A program made the position numbers and the translations under genes. A model generated the notes under the pieces. It had not been told where the DNA came from. It worked only from the letters and a program-made list of their open reading frames with translations, and ran no database searches. From contig NC_091123.1 of the NCBI RefSeq assembly GCF_040183065.1, forward strand, positions 110,830,821 to 110,894,820: a stretch of 64,000 nucleotides of DNA, given 5' to 3'. Each line of letters starts with the position of its first letter. Position 1 is the stretch's first letter. Shown piece by piece: positions 3,132 to 54,248 of the stretch. Source of the DNA: Periplaneta americana. Lineage: Eukaryota > Arthropoda > Insecta > Blattodea > Blattidae.

Positions 3132-3245
3132 ACGTGACAGTTACTTAATGAGACCCTTTTATTTAAATTATTTTAAACATATAATATCACGCAGACGTCC
3201 AATTCCTAACAGCAAATGTTTTTAGAAACGAGCTAAGACAGCTCA
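3132..3245 (+). repeat. Dispersed repeat R1, partial copy
   Basis: Shares TGACAGTTACTTAA, then a CCCTTTTATTTAAATTATTTTAAAC-like block and GTCCAATTCC with copies at 53760-53963 (same strand), 39425-39575 and 41030-41105 (other strand). No coding content. Class unknown. Confidence 0.65.
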
Positions 3246-4200
3246 GCTACGGACACACAGTACCTGTGCGAAAATGTGATTCAATAATGAATGCTCTTTC
3301 TTCACTGGAAAATGCGACTATATTTCTAGAACGTACTATACTCACTCACTCATATTGCATATTGTGACCATAAGGCGACTTTGACTGCATATGCGGTCTT
3401 GGTTCTGTATTGAGGACGGGTAAGGTTTACTAGTAGAAGTGGTGGGAGGGAAGTACATTAAAAATCAGGTACACTAAAAATGGAAGTAAAAATAAAATGA
3501 TGTCCCTGTATAAAAATGTTTAAATTAGTAGTTTAACTTTGATGGTGGCAACATTTTGTCCTTTAGGAATTGAATATTCCTCGAAGAACAATCCCAGTTT
3601 CAAAATATTTTAAGATTAGCTAAGTCACATTGTATTGTTGACCACTTTACTATAGACCACTGGTGACCGATTGGTGTTCTTTGTGCAAGAGCACTCTTCG
3701 CTCCAAACCAGCAGTACGCAAGGGCAGATCGTCCCATTCAAACACTTAACGTCAGCAACCCTTTGATACTCAAGCTTACACCACTCACCGCGTGTTATTC
3801 TCCGTGCGTTTATTACTCGCCACGCTAAAAGTATATCAGTAAAACTATATTACATGCATATTCATAGTCCTTTTCCCGCGTATTGCTACGAGAGAGACGA
3901 AACTTGAGCTGCGTGTTCAAAAATGTTTTGTATACAGAGATAACACTCGGAGTTTCTATTTTTTTATCGCCCACATAATAATTATCGCTTCAATCATTGG
4001 ATTCCTGCAATGCCGCAATTATGTATCTAGAGATCACTTTAGTTTCTGGTTTATTTGTCGATAAGGAAATTGCCAGTATATTCCTATTTATGCATGTAGG
4101 CCTACAAATAATGTAAAGGCCTACATGCGACTGGGTAATGTACGCATACCAATATTTAATGTGCACATGCATGTATGCAATGTGATATGCAAGAGTACAG
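3246..4200. other. Unassigned stretch
   Basis: Unique-looking within the window. I see no protein-like open frame and no inverted or direct repeat boundaries. Confidence 0.5.
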
Positions 4201-9745: not shown

Positions 9746-11941
<2,196 letters not shown>

Positions 11942-20988: not shown

Positions 20989-21028
20989 AATAAAAATAAT
21001 TATATACTTACTTATTACTTACTGGCTT

Positions 21029-22684
21029 TTAAGGAACCCGGAGGTTCATTGCCACCCTCACATAAGCCCGCCATTGGTCCCTATCCTGAGCAAGATTAAT
21101 CCAGTCTCTACCATCATATCCCACCTCCCTCAAAACCATTTTAATATTATTCTCCCATCTACGTCTCTGCCTCCCCAAATGTCTTTTCCCCTCTGGCCTC
21201 CCAACTAACACTCTATATGCATTTATGAATTCGCCCATACGTGCTACATGCCCTGCCCATCTCAAACGACTGGATTTAATGTTCCTAATTATGTCAGGTG
21301 AAGGATGCAATGCGTTAAGCTCTGCATTGTGTAACTTTCTCCATTCTCCTGTAACTTCATCCCTCTTAGCCCCAAATATTTTCCTAAGAACCTTATTCTC
21401 AAAAACCCTCAATCTCTGTTCCTCTCTCAGAGTGAGAGTCCAAGTTTTACAGCCATACAGAACAACCGGTAATATAACTGTTTTATAAATTCTAACTTTC
21501 AGATTTTTTGACAGCAGACTAGATGACGAAAGCTTCTCAACCGAATAATAACAGGCATTCCCCATATTTATTCCGCGTTTAATTTCCTCCCGAGTGTCAT
21601 TTATATTTGTTACTGTTGCTCCAAGATATTTGAATTTTTCCACCTCTTCGAAGGATAAATCTCCAACTTTTATAGTTCCATTTCGTACAATATTCTGATC
21701 TCGCGACATGATCATATACTTAGTCTTTTCGGGATTTACTTCCAACCCTATCTCTTTACTTGCTTCAAGTAGAATTTCCGCGTTTTCCCTTATCGTTTGT
21801 GGATTTTCTCCTAACATATTCACGTCATCCGCATAGACAAGAAGCTGATGCATCCCGTTCAAGTAAAGGTGATAGTGTATCTCCCTGCTTTAGCCCGCAG
21901 TGAATTGGAAAAGCATCAGATAGAAACTGGCCTATACGGACTCTGCTGTAAGTTTCACTAAGACACATTTTAATTAACCGAACTAGTTTCTTGGGAATAC
22001 CAAATGCAATAAGAATATTATATAAAACTTCTCTGTGAACCGAGTCATACGCCTTTTTGAAGTCTATGAATAACTGATGTACTGTACCCTTATACTCCCA
22101 TTTTTTTCTCCAATATCTGTCGAATACAAAAAATCTGATCAATAGTCGATCTATTACGCCTGAAACCACACTGATGATCCCCAATAACTTCATCTACATA
22201 TGGAGCCAATCTTCTCAAAAGGATATTCGACAAAATGTTGTACGACGTCAACAAAAGTGATATTCCTCGAAAGTTACTACAGTTAGTCTTGTCCCCCCTT
22301 CTTAAAAATAGGTACGATTATGGACTCCTTCCATTGTTCTGGTACAATTTCCTTTTCCCAAATTGCAAGTACAAGTGTATAAATTTCGCTAGATAATACG
22401 CTTCCACCCTCTTGTATTAATTCTTCTGGAATTTGATCAATACCTGGAGACTTGTACTTTTTCAGATTTTCTATCGCAATCTTTCACTGAAATAATTATC
22501 TCTATTCTCCTCAATTGGATCCTGTAAGAATTTCAATTTTTCCTGTTTCCTTCTATATACTGCAATGGAACAATCTTCATCAAACAATGGTTTCTTTTTC
22601 TTAGTTTCATGATAACCTATGCTCTGCTCAGCTGCAACTTTGATATTATCTCGGATATTGTCCCATACGCTATTAACATCTAAC
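21029..22684 (-). pseudogene. LINE reverse transcriptase, disrupted
   Basis: Recognisable RT parts, in order: FIDFKKAYDSV (motif A with its aspartate), [12 protein letters not shown] (motif B), and [11 protein letters not shown] (motif C, catalytic ADD). The thumb/C-terminal region follows with [16 protein letters not shown] sequence (here [13 protein letters not shown]). The 277-codon frame at 21029-21862 starts just before motif C and the 122-codon frame at 21825-22193 ends just after motif B. The stretch normally between them is deleted, shifting the frame. An earlier deletion near 22484 removes most of the linker between endonuclease and RT. Confidence 0.9.
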
Positions 22685-22685
22685 T

Positions 22686-22918
22686 AGTCGACCTGGTTGG
22701 CGAGTTGGTATAGCGCTGGTCTTCTATGCCCAAGGTTGCGGGTTCGATCCCGGGCCAGGTCGATGGCATATAAGTGTGCTTAAATGCGACAGGCTCATGT
22801 CAGTAGATTTACTGGCATGCAAAAGAACTCCTGCGGGACAAAATTCCGGCACATCCGGCGACGCTGATATAACCTCTGCAGTTGCGAGCGTCGTTAAATA
22901 AAAAACATAACATAACAT
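22686..22918 (+). mobile_element. SINE family A, full length, inside the LINE
   Basis: Perfect 11-bp duplications AACATCTAACT (22675-22685 and 22919-22929) bound it. Head: GGCGAGTTGGTATAGCGC (A box) and GGTTCGATCCC (B box). Tail: GCGTCGTTAAATAAAAAACA plus ATAACAT repeats. It adds a spurious tail to the LINE endonuclease frame. It inserted after the LINE and in the opposite orientation. Confidence 0.93.
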
Positions 22919-22929
22919 AACATCTAACT

Positions 22930-23952
22930 CTTTCTCAGCTTCGTCGGAAGTTGCTAAAGCAGCAAACCTATTTGAAATTTCAACCTGATAACGTTGCTTA
23001 GTTTCCTCGTCCTTTAATTTCAGAATATTGAATCTACTAATATTAGCTTGTTGCTCTACTCGCTTGGCTACCGATAGTCTTTCTCTTAATTCTCCAATTA
23101 CCAAATAATGGTCGGAATTACAGTCTGCCCCCCTGAAAGTTCGAATGTCTACTATACTAGTATGTCTTCGTTTATCTATCAAGATGTGATCTGTTTGGTT
23201 GTGTGTCATTCCGTCTGGAGAAGTCCAAGTATATTTATGTATATCCTTATGGGGGAATGTTGTACTCTTGACAATTAAATTTTTTGATGTGGCTAAGCTG
23301 AATAACCCAACTCCAATGTCATTACTACTTACGTGTAGGCTTTCTTTTCCAATTGTTGGTTTAAAAATATCCTCCTGTCCTACTTTAGCGTTGAAATCCC
23401 CCAATAAAACTTTCATGTGATATCTAGGTAACTGATCAAAAGTGTGTTCCAATTCCTCATAGAAGCTATCCTTTATATGGTCGTCTTTCTCTTCTGTAGG
23501 GGCGTGAGCATTTATAACTACGATATCGCACCATCTACCCTTAAGTGCTAAATACGATAACCTGTCACTGATAAATTCGACCTTTTTTACAGCTGATTTT
23601 ATTCTTTTATGTACAAAGAATCCCGTTCCTAATTGGTGATTAATGTTTCCTTTCCCATAATACAAGTAATCGCCTATTTGTGATATGCCATTCCCATCTA
23701 ATCTAACCTCTTGTACTCCCACGAAGTCTATTCTATATCTAGCTAGATCTTTAGCTACTAATGTTACCCCTCCTGTTCTATAAAGATAGTTACGTTCCAT
23801 GTACCAAATCTTATAACCTTATCCCTTTGCTGTGGTCTTGCCGGAGAATCAGTCCCATTCCGAGGCTTACTGTTAGGTTTTGTAACAAGCTGTTTTTTAC
23901 GGTGATGGGTTGTTAGCCCTTCGCCCAACCCCCAAGCTGGAGGACCACACAT
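22930..23952 (-). pseudogene. LINE apurinic-type (EEP) endonuclease, frameshifted
   Basis: The N-terminal FGTWNV motif lies in one frame (about 23790-23810) and the rest in the next, so a frameshift separates them. Then follow VGVQEVRLDG (catalytic Glu region), VINAHAPTEEKDD, LLGDFNAKVG (Asp/Asn active-site segment) and NSDHYLV (the SDH motif). The order and spacing are those of the exonuclease/endonuclease/phosphatase fold that nicks target DNA in RTE-type LINEs. Such frames are often mis-annotated as craniofacial development protein 2-like. Confidence 0.9.
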
Positions 23953-25429: not shown

Positions 25430-26479
25430 CGTAATAGGTCTACTATTGATAAGATATTTTGTATTCGACAGGTATTGGAGAAAAAAATGGGAGTATAAGG
25501 GTACAGAATATCAGTTATTTATAGATTTCAAAAAGGCATATGACTTGGATAAGAGAAAAGTTTTATATAATACTCTTATTGAATTTAGGAGAAGAAACTA
25601 GTTCGATTAATTAAAATGTGCCTCAGTGAAACTTACAGCAGAGTCCGTATAGGCCAGTTTCTATCTGATGCTGCGAACTAAAGCAAGGGGATACACTATC
25701 ACCTTTACCTTTTAACTTCACTCTGAAATATTCAAGTAAAGCGATAGGTTTTGAAGTAAATCCCGAAAAGACAAAGTATACGAATATGTCTCATGACTAG
25801 AATATTGTACGAAATGGAAATATAAAAATTGAAGATTTATTTTTCGAAAACTTGAAAAAATTCAAATCTCTTGGAGCACGTAACAAATGTAGTCTAAATG
25901 ACAGTCGGGAGGAAATTAAACGCAGAATAAATATGGGAAATGCGTGTTATTATTCGGTTGAGAAGATTTTGTCATCTAGTCTGCTGTCAAAAAATCTGAA
26001 AGTTAGAGTTTATAAAACAGTTATATTATCAGTTGTTCTGAATGGTTGTGAAAATTGGACTCTCACTTTGAGAGAGGAACAGAGATTAAGGGTGTTTGAG
26101 AATAAGGTCCTTGGGAAAATATCTGGGCTATGAGGGATGAAGTTACAGGAGAATGGAGAAAGTTACACAACACAGAACTGCACGCATTGTATTCTTCACC
26201 TGACATAATTAGGAACATTAAATCCAGACTTTTGAGATAGGCAGAACATGTATGGGCGAATCCAGAAATGCATATAGAGTGTCAGTTGGGAGACACGAGG
26301 GAAAAAGATCTTTGGGGAGGCCGAGATGTAGATGGGAGGATAATATTAAAATGGATTTGAGGGAAATGGGATATGATGATAGAGAGTGGTTTAATCTTGC
26401 TCAGGATAGGGACCGATGGAAGGCTTATGTGAGGGCGGGAATGAACCCTGCTGGTTCCTTAAAAGTCATTTGTAAGTAA
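25430..26479 (+). mobile_element. RTE-type LINE, 5'-truncated, degenerate
   Basis: It begins at the family's RST-ID-IF-IRQ segment and continues through FIDFKKAYD. A deletion follows motif B and removes motif C. It resumes at EVNPEKTKY and runs to the C-terminal RRCRWEDNIKMDLREMG-like block and the TTTGTAAGTAAG tail. Many stops interrupt it. Flanks GTTGGTAATTAAAA (25416-25429) and GTTGGTTATTGAAAA (26480-26494) look like a diverged target duplication. Confidence 0.85.
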
Positions 26480-28381: not shown

Positions 28382-29379
28382 TTAAAATCTTGTCCACATG
28401 CTATCAGCTTCTATTACAGCCCTAAGTCGATCCGGCATGGATGTCACGAGATTGTGGAATAAGTTCTGATCCCCGGCGAGATCTTCCCAGGTGTCAACAA
28501 CTTGATCCCACAATTCGTCTCGATTTCGAGGCCGTCGGTGGGCATAGGTGGCTATCCTTCTCTTTTGCAATTCCGCCCATAAATTTTCGATGACATTCAA
28601 ACCAGGTGACTTCGGAGGCCAATTAATGATTTCGATCTCGGGTCTCCTTTGAAACCATCTTTGAATGCTTGCAGCATAGTGCACGGGATGGTTATCCTGC
28701 TGGAACAGCAATGTTCCTTCGGGAAAACGTTCTCGGGCGGAGGGAAGGAATATATTTTCCAGAATGTGCTCGTAAGTTCCCCCATTAAACCGGCCATTGA
28801 TGCGTTCTATAACGCCAGGTCCATCGTAAGACATCCACCCCCAACACGATATGCTAAAGCGCCCCGATCTTTCACGTCGGTGCACATAGCGCTGGTCATG
28901 TCGGAGACCATCCTCAAGATAGACACGGACAGGACCTTCGTAATCACTCGAGATGGTTGTTTCGTCGGAGAAAATTACATTTCTCCAATCGAAATCCAGT
29001 CAATTGGTAGCGAAGGCAAGATGGTCGACAACTTGTGCTTCCCCCAATATTTCCATTAGCGCAGCCCTCAGGCTCCTAATACCGCGGTTCCCCAACCTGC
29101 TGATCACAGTCTGTGAAGAGCCGGGAAAGTTAGATGCTGCTCTTATTCGTTAGCAGTCAGAAAGGGGTCCTGTCGAACTGTCTCGAATGAGAGAGCATCC
29201 TCTTCCAATGAAGAAATCCGCGAACGCCCAGGAATAGGGCGATTTTCGACCTCCCCTAAATTTTGGTCACGATGAACCCACCTCGCGGCTGTACTTCCAG
29301 GAACACCTACCAAACGGCCAGCAGATCTAGCACCATATCCAGCCTCAACTCGCTGTCTCATGTCACGTCGGTTCGCCAT
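28382..29379 (-). pseudogene. Tc1-like transposase, frameshift and stop
   Basis: The N-terminus (from the ATG at 29379) has a paired-like helix-turn-helix with RDMRQRVEAGYGARSAGR and the linker PIPGRSR. A 1-base loss near 29149 and a TGA at 29000-29002 break the frame. Catalytic segments are visible: NVIFSDETTI (Asp), FQQDNHPVHY (Asp) and SPGLNVIENLW (Glu), the last two separated by 35 residues by my count. Canonical Tc1 has 34. The C-terminus looks complete. Terminal inverted repeats were not found with confidence. Confidence 0.88.
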
Positions 29380-32692: not shown

Positions 32693-33518
32693 TACTTGCT
32701 TACTTACTCACTTACAAATGGCTTTTAAAGAACCTGCAGGTTCATTTCCGCCCCCACATAAACCCGCCATCGATCCCTATTCTGTGCAAGATTAATCCAC
32801 TCTCTATCATCATATACCTCCTCCCTCAAATCCATTTAATATTATCCTCCCATTTACGACTCGGTCTCCCCAAAGATCGTTTTCCCTCCGGCCTTCCAAC
32901 TAACACTCTATATGCATTTCTGGATTCGCCCATACGTACTACATGCCCTGCCCATCTCAAACGTCTGGATTTAATGTTCCTAATTATGTCAGGTGAAGAA
33001 TACAATGCGTGCAGTTCTGTGTTGTGTAACTTTCTCCATTCTCCTGTAACTTCATTCCTCTTAGCCCCAAATATTTTCCTAGGAACCTTATTCTCAAACA
33101 CCATTAATCTCTGTTCCTCTCTCAAAGTGACAGTCCAAGTTTCACAACCATACAGAACAACCGGTAATATAACTGTTTTATAAATTCTAACTTTCAGAAT
33201 TTTTGACAAGAAACTAGATGATAAAAGCTTCCCAACCGAATAATAACAGGTATTTCCCATATTTATTCTGCGTTTAATTTCCTCCCAAGCGTCATTCATA
33301 TTTGTTACTGTTGCTTAAAGATATTTGAATTTTTCCACCTCTTCGAAGGATAAATCTCCAATTTTTATATTTTCATTTCGTACAATATTCTAATCACGAG
33401 ACATAATTATATACTACCTTGTTTTTTCGGGGTGCACTTCCAAACCTATCACTTCACTTGCTTCAAGTAAAATTTCCGTGTTTTCCCTAATCGTTCTTAG
33501 ATTTTCTGCTAACATAAT
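32693..33518 (-). mobile_element. RTE-type LINE, 5'-truncated
   Basis: Minus strand: it starts within the segment just after RT motif C (EVHPEKTR) and continues through CETWTVTLREE and [16 protein letters not shown]. It ends in a CATTTGTAAGTGAGTAAG-like tail at 32693. A stop near 33316 and a 1-base loss near 32838 break the frame. (ACT)n lies on both sides, so it probably inserted into an ACT microsatellite. Confidence 0.87.
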
Positions 33519-33600
33519 TACTATTACTACTACTACTACTACTACTACCACTACTACTACTAGTTGTAGTAATATCAGCAGTAGCAGTAGCAGTACTACC
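33519..33600 (+). repeat. (ACT)n / (AGC)n microsatellite
   Basis: ACT units followed by mixed AGT/AGC, directly at the 5' end of the LINE fragment. Confidence 0.88.
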
Positions 33601-34660: not shown

Positions 34661-35284
34661 TACGAATATTTACACTACACTTAAAAGATTCTCCAGCAAT
34701 ATTCTTCTGTTAACTTGTAACGACTAGTACCTGTTTATTTAAATTTAGATAAAACTATAAGATAAAGTAATAACTTAATTTATGAGCTAATTTAATTCAA
34801 TCAATAATTATAATTAAGTTGAGATAGCTAGTAAAATGATGAGAATTAATTTAATATAAGTTTACTAGAACTATGTTATAGGAAGAAAAATATAAATCTA
34901 AAATATTTTTATATAATAAGAATATTAATGTAATGAAACTTTCCCGTTAGAGGTTTTGTATTCTATTTAGAGAAATTAATGTTAATAATAACAATGGACA
35001 GATGTTAGTTTCATTATAAGTAACAAATATTAATCAGTAATCAGAGTGTTATCGTAGACCACACGTTACTATGTACCGGTTTAATAATTATAACGATTAT
35101 AATCGTTCCCGAGGACGAAAGCGCAGTAGAGCGACATCTCAAAATGGGTAAGGAATCAAGATTGAACATTATAACAGTCTTTAGAAAGCCATGCTTGCGC
35201 GGGCTGCGTTGTCGTAAGTATGGCTCTGCCTGGTGTGTGGATAAGCTTCAGGGCTTCTACCGCGTTGTCTTGGTGTTGGTGGCT

Positions 35285-35318
35285 GACGTTTCGACCGCTG
35301 TATTGTGGTCATCTTCAG
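35285..35318 (-). ncRNA. Hammerhead-ribozyme-like motif, left arm
   Basis: Minus strand: CTGAAGA, a possible 4-bp stem GACC/GGTC, GAAA, then CGTC. This fits the hammerhead core CUGANGA ... GAAA ... UH. GCT before and AGC after can pair as the start of stem I. One extra U sits after CUGAAGA and stem III would be minimal. Self-cleavage is untested. Confidence 0.4.
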
Positions 35319-35476
35319 AGCAGTTGTTGGATAAGGAAATAGTCTGCGAGCTGGTATATATATAGTAGTCTCGATGGGGGAGTACTTGAGGTGATAGGTC
35401 GTAGGTTCTCCTTCTGGCACCTGAGGAAGGAGAACCTACGACTTATCACCGAAAGTACTCCCCCATCGAGACTACT

Positions 35477-35480
<4 letters not shown>

Positions 35481-35539
<59 letters not shown>
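35481..35539 (+). repeat. (TA)n microsatellite
   Basis: A perfect TA run inside the foldback. Confidence 0.95.
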
Positions 35540-35574
35540 GATCTCGCAGACTATTTCCTTATCCAACAACTGCT

Positions 35575-35608
35575 CTGAAGATGACCACAACACAGCGGTC
35601 GAAACGTC
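35575..35608 (+). ncRNA. Hammerhead-ribozyme-like motif, right arm
   Basis: The same core on the plus strand: CTGAAGA (35575-35581), GACC...GGTC, GAAACGTC (35601-35608), with GCT/AGC flanks for stem I. Distal pairing of CCTTATCC with GGTGGAAGG is possible. It differs from the left-arm copy at one loop base (CACAG versus TACAG). Confidence 0.42.
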
Positions 35609-35777
35609 AGCCACCAACACCAAGACAACGCGGTGGAAGGCCTGGAGCTTATTCACACACCATGTACACCAGCCGCGGAAGCCTACGCGAATGGCTCTGC
35701 CTGCCTGCCGCTCAGGACCTGTTGGCAACGAGACATTAAGGAAATAATCATATTTTATTTATCTATATACAGGGAGG

Positions 35778-49269: not shown

Positions 49270-49746
49270 CACTGAACAAATGTATAAAACAGTTATATTA
49301 TCGGTTGTTCTGTATGGTTGTGAAACTTAGGGAGAGGAACAGAGGTTAAGGGTGTTCGAGAATAAGATGTTTAGGAAAATACTTGGGGCTAAGGGAGGAA
49401 GTTACAGAAGAATAGAGGAAGTTTCACAACGCAGAACTGCATGCATTGTATTCTTCACCTGACTTAATAATTAGGAATATTAAATCCAGACGTTTGAGAT
49501 GGGCAGGGCAAGTAGCACGTATGGGCGTGACCAGAAATGTTATGAAGTGTTAGTTGGGAGGTCGAAGGGAAAAAGGCCTTTGTGGAGGCCGAGGCATAGA
49601 TGAGAGGATAATATAAAAATGGATTTGAGGGAGGTGGAATATGATGGTAGAGACTGGATTAATCTTACTCAGGATAGGAACCGATGGCGGGCTTATGTGA
49701 GGGCGGCAATGAATCTCCGGGTTCTCTAAAAGTCATTTATAAGTTA
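49270..49746 (+). mobile_element. RTE-type LINE, 5'-truncated
   Basis: It begins in ATGTATAAAACAGTTATATT (the YKTVILSVVLYGCET segment), lacks TWTL by a small deletion, and ends AAAGTCATTTATAAG. Several frame changes. Confidence 0.83.
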
Positions 49747-53963: not shown

Positions 53964-53994
53964 TAGTATATTTCGTTGAGTTGTACATCGAGCA

Positions 53995-54248
53995 GACGTT
54001 TGAGATGGGTAGGGCATGTAGCACATATGGGCGAATCCAGAAATGCATATAGAGTGTTAGTTGGGAGACCAGAGGGAAAGAGACCTTTGGGGAGGCCGAG
54101 ACGTAGGTGGGAGGATAATATTAAAATGGATTTGAGGGAGGTAGGATGTGATGGTAGAGACTGGATTAATCTTGCACAGAATAGGGACCGATGGCGGCTT
54201 ATGTGAGGGCGGCAATGAACCTCCGGGTTCCTTAAAAGCATTTTGTAA
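53995..54248 (+). mobile_element. RTE-type LINE, short 5'-truncated insertion
   Basis: Perfect 12-bp duplications GTACATCGAGCA (53983-53994 and 54249-54260) bound the last 254 bp of the family. It includes RWVGHVAHMGESRNAYRVLV and ends AAAAGCATTTTGTAA. Identity to the longer copy is high, suggesting it is among the younger inserts. Confidence 0.92.

Follow-up and report, generated by a model that had tools for sequence, protein, structure and literature searches.

We found that a foldback in the Periplaneta americana genome is one small Penelope-like element (PLE) insertion with mirror-image ends. The foldback lies in the window (the whole 64-kb stretch of DNA that was analysed), and coordinates refer to the window unless a contig or another locus is named. 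Very probably, it is a single insertion of a non-autonomous PLE that involved a staggered cut of ~13 bp, outward pLTR ends, two reverse transcriptase (RT) starts, and head-to-head joining, with a hammerhead-like motif that overlaps an AUG in each arm.

Anatomy of the foldback

An inverted-repeat search of the window identified main arms of 134 nt (35231-35364 and 35529-35662) that are 95% complementary. The RNA of 35231-35691 has a predicted folding energy of -372.5 kcal/mol, versus -124.8 kcal/mol (standard deviation 5.9) for 100 shuffles (z = -41.9), which excludes chance as the origin of the foldback. The parts of the unit are listed below. L035 is a relative from elsewhere in the genome that is described in the next section, and family A is the PLE family of the window copy.

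35220-35232: left copy of the target-site duplication (TSD), ATGGCTCTGCCTG; an exact 13-bp direct repeat
35233-35425, sense strand minus: left half, the 5'-truncated 3' end of a family A PLE, with no tail; aligns to 3128-3352 of L035
35363-35414: inner inverted repeat, left copy; 52 nt, 94% against the right copy
35415-35425: 11-nt loop, counted in the left half
35426-35690, sense strand plus: right half, the same PLE 3' end, with a tail; aligns to 3138-3381 of L035
35426-35477: inner inverted repeat, right copy; 11 nt from the left copy
35482-35538: (TA)n run in the right pLTR, a putative TATA region
35663-35690, plus strand: 28-nt tail, at the right end only, between ORF +82 and +110
35691-35703: right copy of the 13-bp TSD; an exact direct repeat

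Because the 13-bp direct repeat brackets the unit, we set its bounds at 35233-35690, and because the whole foldback sits between the two exact copies, we consider it to be a single insertion. The TSD of the window copy outscores all 520 mismatched-flank controls. The two halves are joined 5' to 5' around the 11-nt loop. The window copy is a short stub that lacks its own ORF.

An earlier, sequence-only reading of this DNA had described a foldback with hammerhead-like cores in both arms, a tighter inner inverted pair, and (TA)n, and all of these are present as described. It had placed the foldback at 35150-35720, which does not hold: the 13-bp repeat gives the narrower bounds above, and the right arm has 28 extra nucleotides.

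Elsewhere in the window, positions 1-342 are a 171-bp tandem duplication (99% identical). One non-LTR retrotransposon family is present in both orientations (1778-2379, 21003-23800, 25430-26447, 32701-33521, 49392-49744, and 53993-54197), and its copy at 21029-23800 has matches to RVT_1 and Exo_endo_phos. At 9983-11467 and 28382-28885, there are a 494-amino-acid ORF with a match to DUF659 and an ORF with a match to DDE_3 (transposase-like).

Penelope-like relatives and the structure of two-ended copies

Searching the genome (3.23 Gb in 91 contigs) for the right arm yielded 1,817 first-look candidates, of which 40 were scored. Among 20 copies that were taken with 10 kb, 16 are two-ended, with a minus-strand arm followed by a plus-strand arm and the ribozyme sense pointing outward; the other four (L012-L015) are one-sided.

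In L035, the family A repeat lies on both sides of an RT frame (pLTRs at 494-707 and 3138-3381). The element runs from a direct pLTR that contains the motif, through the RT frame and a C-terminal frame, to a 3' pLTR where the motif recurs; an inverted copy of the element's 3' end lies upstream of the first pLTR. The RT frame has a stop at its end and is out of frame with the first AUG. The RT of L035 (this relative, not the window copy) matches Pfam RVT_1 above the cut-off (E = 1.8e-12) and weakly matches PDB structures of Drt2 RT (E = 0.0011) and telomerase RT (E = 0.0051). Another relative, L025, has RT and GIY-YIG-like frames between inverted ends, and the RVT_1 match there is below the cut-off. 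No Pfam match to a GIY-YIG domain was found in the PLE frames that were searched. The sequence motif GIY...YIGQTG...RRKEH is present in L025 (the same place as L031), L027, and L030, with a related form in L047; L035 reads RIY at the GIY position.

Thus, the structural marks of PLEs (pLTRs around an ORF, an optional tail, and a TSD) are present, and an RT related to telomerase RT is found in the relative L035, not in the window copy. The foldback is akin to PLEs. The sequence-only reading had suspected this link, which the PLE frames that accompany the same repeat in L035 and L025 bear out; it had suggested looking for a Penelope RT flanked by the repeat, and L035 has that arrangement. It had also seen terminal repeats paired head to head. 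The inverted arms and the alignment to L035 agree with this, with the amendment that the pair is one insertion with a TSD and not a chance meeting.

To describe how such copies are built, we compared 26 two-ended insertions, namely the window copy, L002, L003, L005, L006, L008-L011, L016-L030, L057, and L059, which are best-scoring copies throughout. Family A loci with one complete end only (L004, L007, and L012-L015) were left out, as were L056, L058, and L060-L063 (one complete end within the 1.4-1.5 kb taken), L031 (the place of L025), L032-L035 (partial), and L001 (the window itself). Apart from the window copy, a query containing the tail supplied 23 of the 26, and a tail-free one supplied L057 and L059.

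With end coordinates set by hand and 520 mismatched flanks as controls, 23 of the 26 copies have a TSD of 13-18 bp with at most one mismatch that scores above the best control. No TSD was found in L009 or L022, and L025 is borderline. All 26 copies have the tail on exactly one end and two tails were never seen; because the query includes the tail, only the absence of a second tail is a fair test for the 23 copies from that query and the window copy. In other families, L064 (family C) and L065 (family B) each have one longer and one shorter end, as judged by eye. The outer ends lie at ORF +82 and +110 in the window copy (family A), +84 and +122 in L065, and +90 and +119 in L064.

These results also bear on whether the foldback could be a DNA transposon of the foldback or MITE type, with terminal inverted repeats. 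Such an element would have inverted ends, a TSD, a small size, and many copies, as seen here. However, the ends are unequal (the tail is on one end only), TSD lengths vary from 13 to 18 bp, and truncation points vary. The PLE reading frames in the longer copies L025 and L035 contradict this explanation, which we rejected as extremely improbable.

The truncation points of the two halves are at most 40 nt apart in 11 of the 26 copies, versus 4.1 expected (10,000 permutations, p = 0.001), and are more than 40 nt apart in the other 15. Arm divergence is 4.3% within a copy versus 4.9% between copies (p = 0.001, n = 21, after dropping L006, L010, L021, L023, and L059 as rearranged or truncated), but this test cannot separate one template from two because the copies are nearly identical. 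L064 has arms of 1.33 kb with zero mismatches outside a 10-nt loop. Among 150 RT matches listed separately, 21 pairs of neighbours lie within 15 kb of each other, and every one of these pairs is divergent. In two motif searches and among the matches listed on contig C1 (the first 100 per search), 50 of 53 two-member clusters are divergent, and 45 of 71 and 35 of 65 clusters consist of a single exact match.

The two halves might have come from two independent insertions, or from RT events on different RNAs, one per target strand, that were then end-joined. The 15 copies with distant truncation points would fit this explanation, as would an arm divergence within copies that is nearly the between-copy value; also, the Anolis PLE protein cuts and extends both strands, according to the available text of PMC11167929. 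On the other hand, a single TSD brackets both halves, which excludes two insertions. Also weighing against separate RT events are the excess of matched truncation points, the slightly greater likeness of arms of one copy than expected by chance, the identical arms of L064 around its short loop, and the lack of any copy with two tails among the 26. We view an origin from two events as possible but somewhat doubtful.

In the single-insertion mechanism that we favour, a full-length relative would supply the enzyme. The target would be cut with a stagger of ~13 bp and the element's cDNA primed, and each end of the insert would be an outward-facing pLTR end. RT would start at two sites ~28 nt apart near the ORF start, with the tail between them on one end. 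The halves would then be joined head to head at the short loop, either by self-priming of one cDNA or by the joining of two cDNAs.

A hammerhead-like motif at the start codon

Both arms contain CTGAAGA-T-GACC...GGTC-GAAACGTC with GCT/AGC flanks, starting at 35575 on the plus strand and at 35318 on the minus strand. The features of each arm are:

35563-35620, plus strand: right-arm hammerhead-like motif; core 35575-35608; predicted cleavage 35608/35609; model R1 31.0 bits, E = 6.2e-8
35273-35330, minus strand: left-arm hammerhead-like motif; core from 35318 down to 35285; predicted cleavage 35285/35284; model R1 30.8 bits, E = 7.3e-8
35581-35583, plus strand: AUG of the right arm, formed by A9, the inserted U, and stem II's first G; frame open to the end of the insert
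35310-35312, minus strand: AUG of the left arm

The type I core (CUGANGA / GAAA / UH) is intact in both arms of the window copy, with one base inserted after A9, and this is also true of 43 of the 50 scorable family A arms. R1 is a covariance model that we built from PLE families B-E of the same genome only, with family A excluded. Across the 64-kb window, R1 matched both arms and nothing else up to E = 10 (these E-values are rough). This agrees with the sequence-only reading's proposal of a candidate ribozyme on both strands. The check that it had put forward, against the Rfam hammerhead families, went the other way: Rfam gave no hammerhead at the gathering score and none up to E = 10 around the foldback, although R1, from the other PLE families, does match. 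Weak miRNA-like and pestivirus-like Rfam matches on the foldback and the TA runs were far below their gathering scores, and we discarded them. Taken alone, the 71-nt ribozyme stretch has an unremarkable folding energy relative to shuffles (z = -0.69), and the minimum-energy structure predicted for it differs from the full hammerhead.

We also considered 20 stretches near the expected ORF starts of PLEs that are 46-89% identical to the L025 RT query. The motif CTGAAGATG...GAAA(CGT, GCT or CCT) is present in 14 of these, which belong to four families (B-E) with RT identities of 46-51% to the query. It is absent from the stretches for L036, L038 (101 bases only), L050, L051, L053, and L054, the last two of which are the nearest to family A.

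In seven sequences from five families, 92.9% of cells are consistent with the hammerhead pairing. Both bases change in eight of the 12 pairs, a count that 6 of 500 shuffles attain, and these changes fall in all three helices (stems I, II, and III). For covariation, the sequences score 0.611 and shuffles 0.222, with none of 500 shuffles as high as the real value; slid versions score no more than 0.143. Stem III is two pairs with no loop: ACGU in families A-C and L049, and AGCU in family E. In L040 (family D), it reads ACCU and the inner pair is broken. As judged from the alignment, then, the stem III palindrome that would let two RNAs pair is kept from ACGU to AGCU, L040 excepted. Because stem III is only the palindrome ACGU, the minimal type I motif should act as a dimer of two RNAs.

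Across the genome, the exact pattern with an ACGUC end has 3,759 matches (control, 1) and the AGCUH form has 1,472 (control, 10). With the same 3' half, the base between A9 and the G of stem II is U in the 3,759 matches and A, C, or G in another 169 (control, 8); the G directly follows A9 in just 19 (control, 6), and at least four of these coincide by place with the 169. Among these matches, then, an inserted base is nearly obligatory. The extra U had earlier been taken as a departure from the core, but U is the norm in this genome and supplies the middle base of the ORF's AUG. Some of the 169 have C for the extra U, with a perfect six-pair stem II and no AUG (for example, C1:137714372-137714406 and C1:150778709-150778743). 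Either the AUG was lost in these copies, or the inserted base serves some purpose besides the AUG.

The motif also occurs in tandem on contig C1. At C1:198442908-198444097, six AGCU-type matches in the same orientation, with an exact spacing of 186 bp, follow one match in the opposite orientation; judging by this arrangement, it is likely a retrozyme- or satellite-like tandem array of the PLE repeat. At C1:72051506-72051708, four motif matches in the same orientation are spaced by 56 bp, and the unit of this minisatellite is little more than the ribozyme.

In families B-E, the AUG opens the PLE reading frame in the stretches taken, although stops follow later in some of them. For family A, the right arm of the window copy keeps the frame that starts at the AUG open throughout, and further on, SLREHLTYLYRE in L035 resembles SLHCKINRLYGE in family C. 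Because L035 has a stop and a shift, the identification of this AUG as the ORF start in family A rests on homology. The predicted cleavage site is 28 nt inside the ORF. If a full-length element were cleaved there, the downstream unit would lose the AUG and nine codons, leaving an mRNA with no start codon. The foldback's own ribozymes are probably sequestered and idle, because read-through RNA of either strand is predicted to pair arm to arm (the -372.5 kcal/mol fold); the sequence-only reading had anticipated that the opposite arm could do this.

The motif might not be a working ribozyme at all: it could be conserved as the coding sequence for the N-terminus of the PLE protein, or as a binding and priming signal on the RNA. 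Its location at the ORF start, adjoining the RT start sites, would fit this, and so would the lack of an Rfam match. In Anolis, cleavage needed the PLE protein, insertion in vitro proceeded without the ribozyme, and no RNA-seq ends were at the cut site (available text of PMC11167929). The in vitro result speaks for a non-ribozyme role, and the three together disfavour an essential role for ribozyme cleavage. But stems I, II, and III all show coordinated pair changes, and the reading frame of GAAACGTC in family A is not the one used in families B-D. This frame difference points to constraint on the RNA, and protein constraint alone is not a sufficient explanation. Overall, we consider it unlikely that the motif is not a ribozyme.

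If the motif is a ribozyme, then the ribozyme core and the start codon might be one object. Cleavage 28 nt into the ORF, triggered by the protein or by dimerisation, would turn the mRNA into a non-translatable template for insertion and act as a self-limiting switch, and each insertion would be primed twice on one RNA, at sites 28-38 nt apart. This is speculative, and we would not bet on it. If true, double priming on one RNA would account for the single tail and also for the agreement in truncation points between the two halves.

Comparison with known systems

Cervera and de la Pena (in 2014) and Lunse and others (in 2017) reportedly linked minimal dimeric hammerheads to PLEs. Those hammerheads are like the ones described here in being type I with almost no stem III. 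That PLEs have hammerheads in their pLTRs, with a reduced stem III and action as dimers, is already known (PMC6155905, PMC7761336, and PMC7229834, in their available parts).

The closest parallel for the start codon is PAc, a Penelope/Poseidon-type PLE of Anolis carolinensis (PMC11167929, as far as its available text goes). PAc has a hammerhead at the start of its ORF, and because this ORF begins at stem II, the overlap of AUG and ribozyme as such is published for one element. The cut is 26 nt downstream of the start codon in PAc, and the predicted cut is at 28 nt here. The RT start of PAc is 111-118 nt into the ORF, which is close to the tail end at +110 here, and in both cases the tail lies between two RT start sites, to which it was traced in PAc. 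PAc differs in its host and its family, and the window copy lacks its own ORF. The available text on PAc makes no mention of an inserted base after A9 or of a compensated stem III. More broadly, we found no description of the inserted base or of the start-codon overlap, PMC11167929 excepted, in a literature that was available in part and without supplements, which makes this weak evidence of absence.

Penelope families of Adineta vaga have head-to-head inverted pLTRs, junction palindromes, and an ORF start inside the pLTR, with a 31-bp tail on one of the inverted pLTRs (PMC3846280). Cases from Adineta vaga have TSDs of 8-10 bp, versus 13-18 bp here. Hammerheads have zero occurrences in the available text of that paper.

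The non-LTR retrozymes of animals are small non-autonomous repeats with type I hammerheads and are thought to be moved by PLEs (PMC7229834, available part). They are head-to-tail tandem repeats with mostly canonical hammerheads, whereas the unit in the window is a single inverted pair. We therefore rejected a retrozyme identity for it, as it is not a head-to-tail series of repeats that each have a hammerhead.

A 2020 review called the role of PLE hammerheads a mystery (PMC7761336, available part). The families within this one genome provide a natural alignment that has a near-obligate base beside the core; the compensated two-pair stem III fits action as a dimer, and the start-codon overlap hints at the effect that cleavage would have. 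How inverted PLE copies form is a question that is left open in the available text of PMC3846280, and the statistics on single tails and truncation points constrain models of this process. Overall, PLE hammerheads, inverted pLTRs, and tails were published before, and what is added here is the near-obligate inserted base, the compensation in stem III, and the statistics of tails and truncation points.
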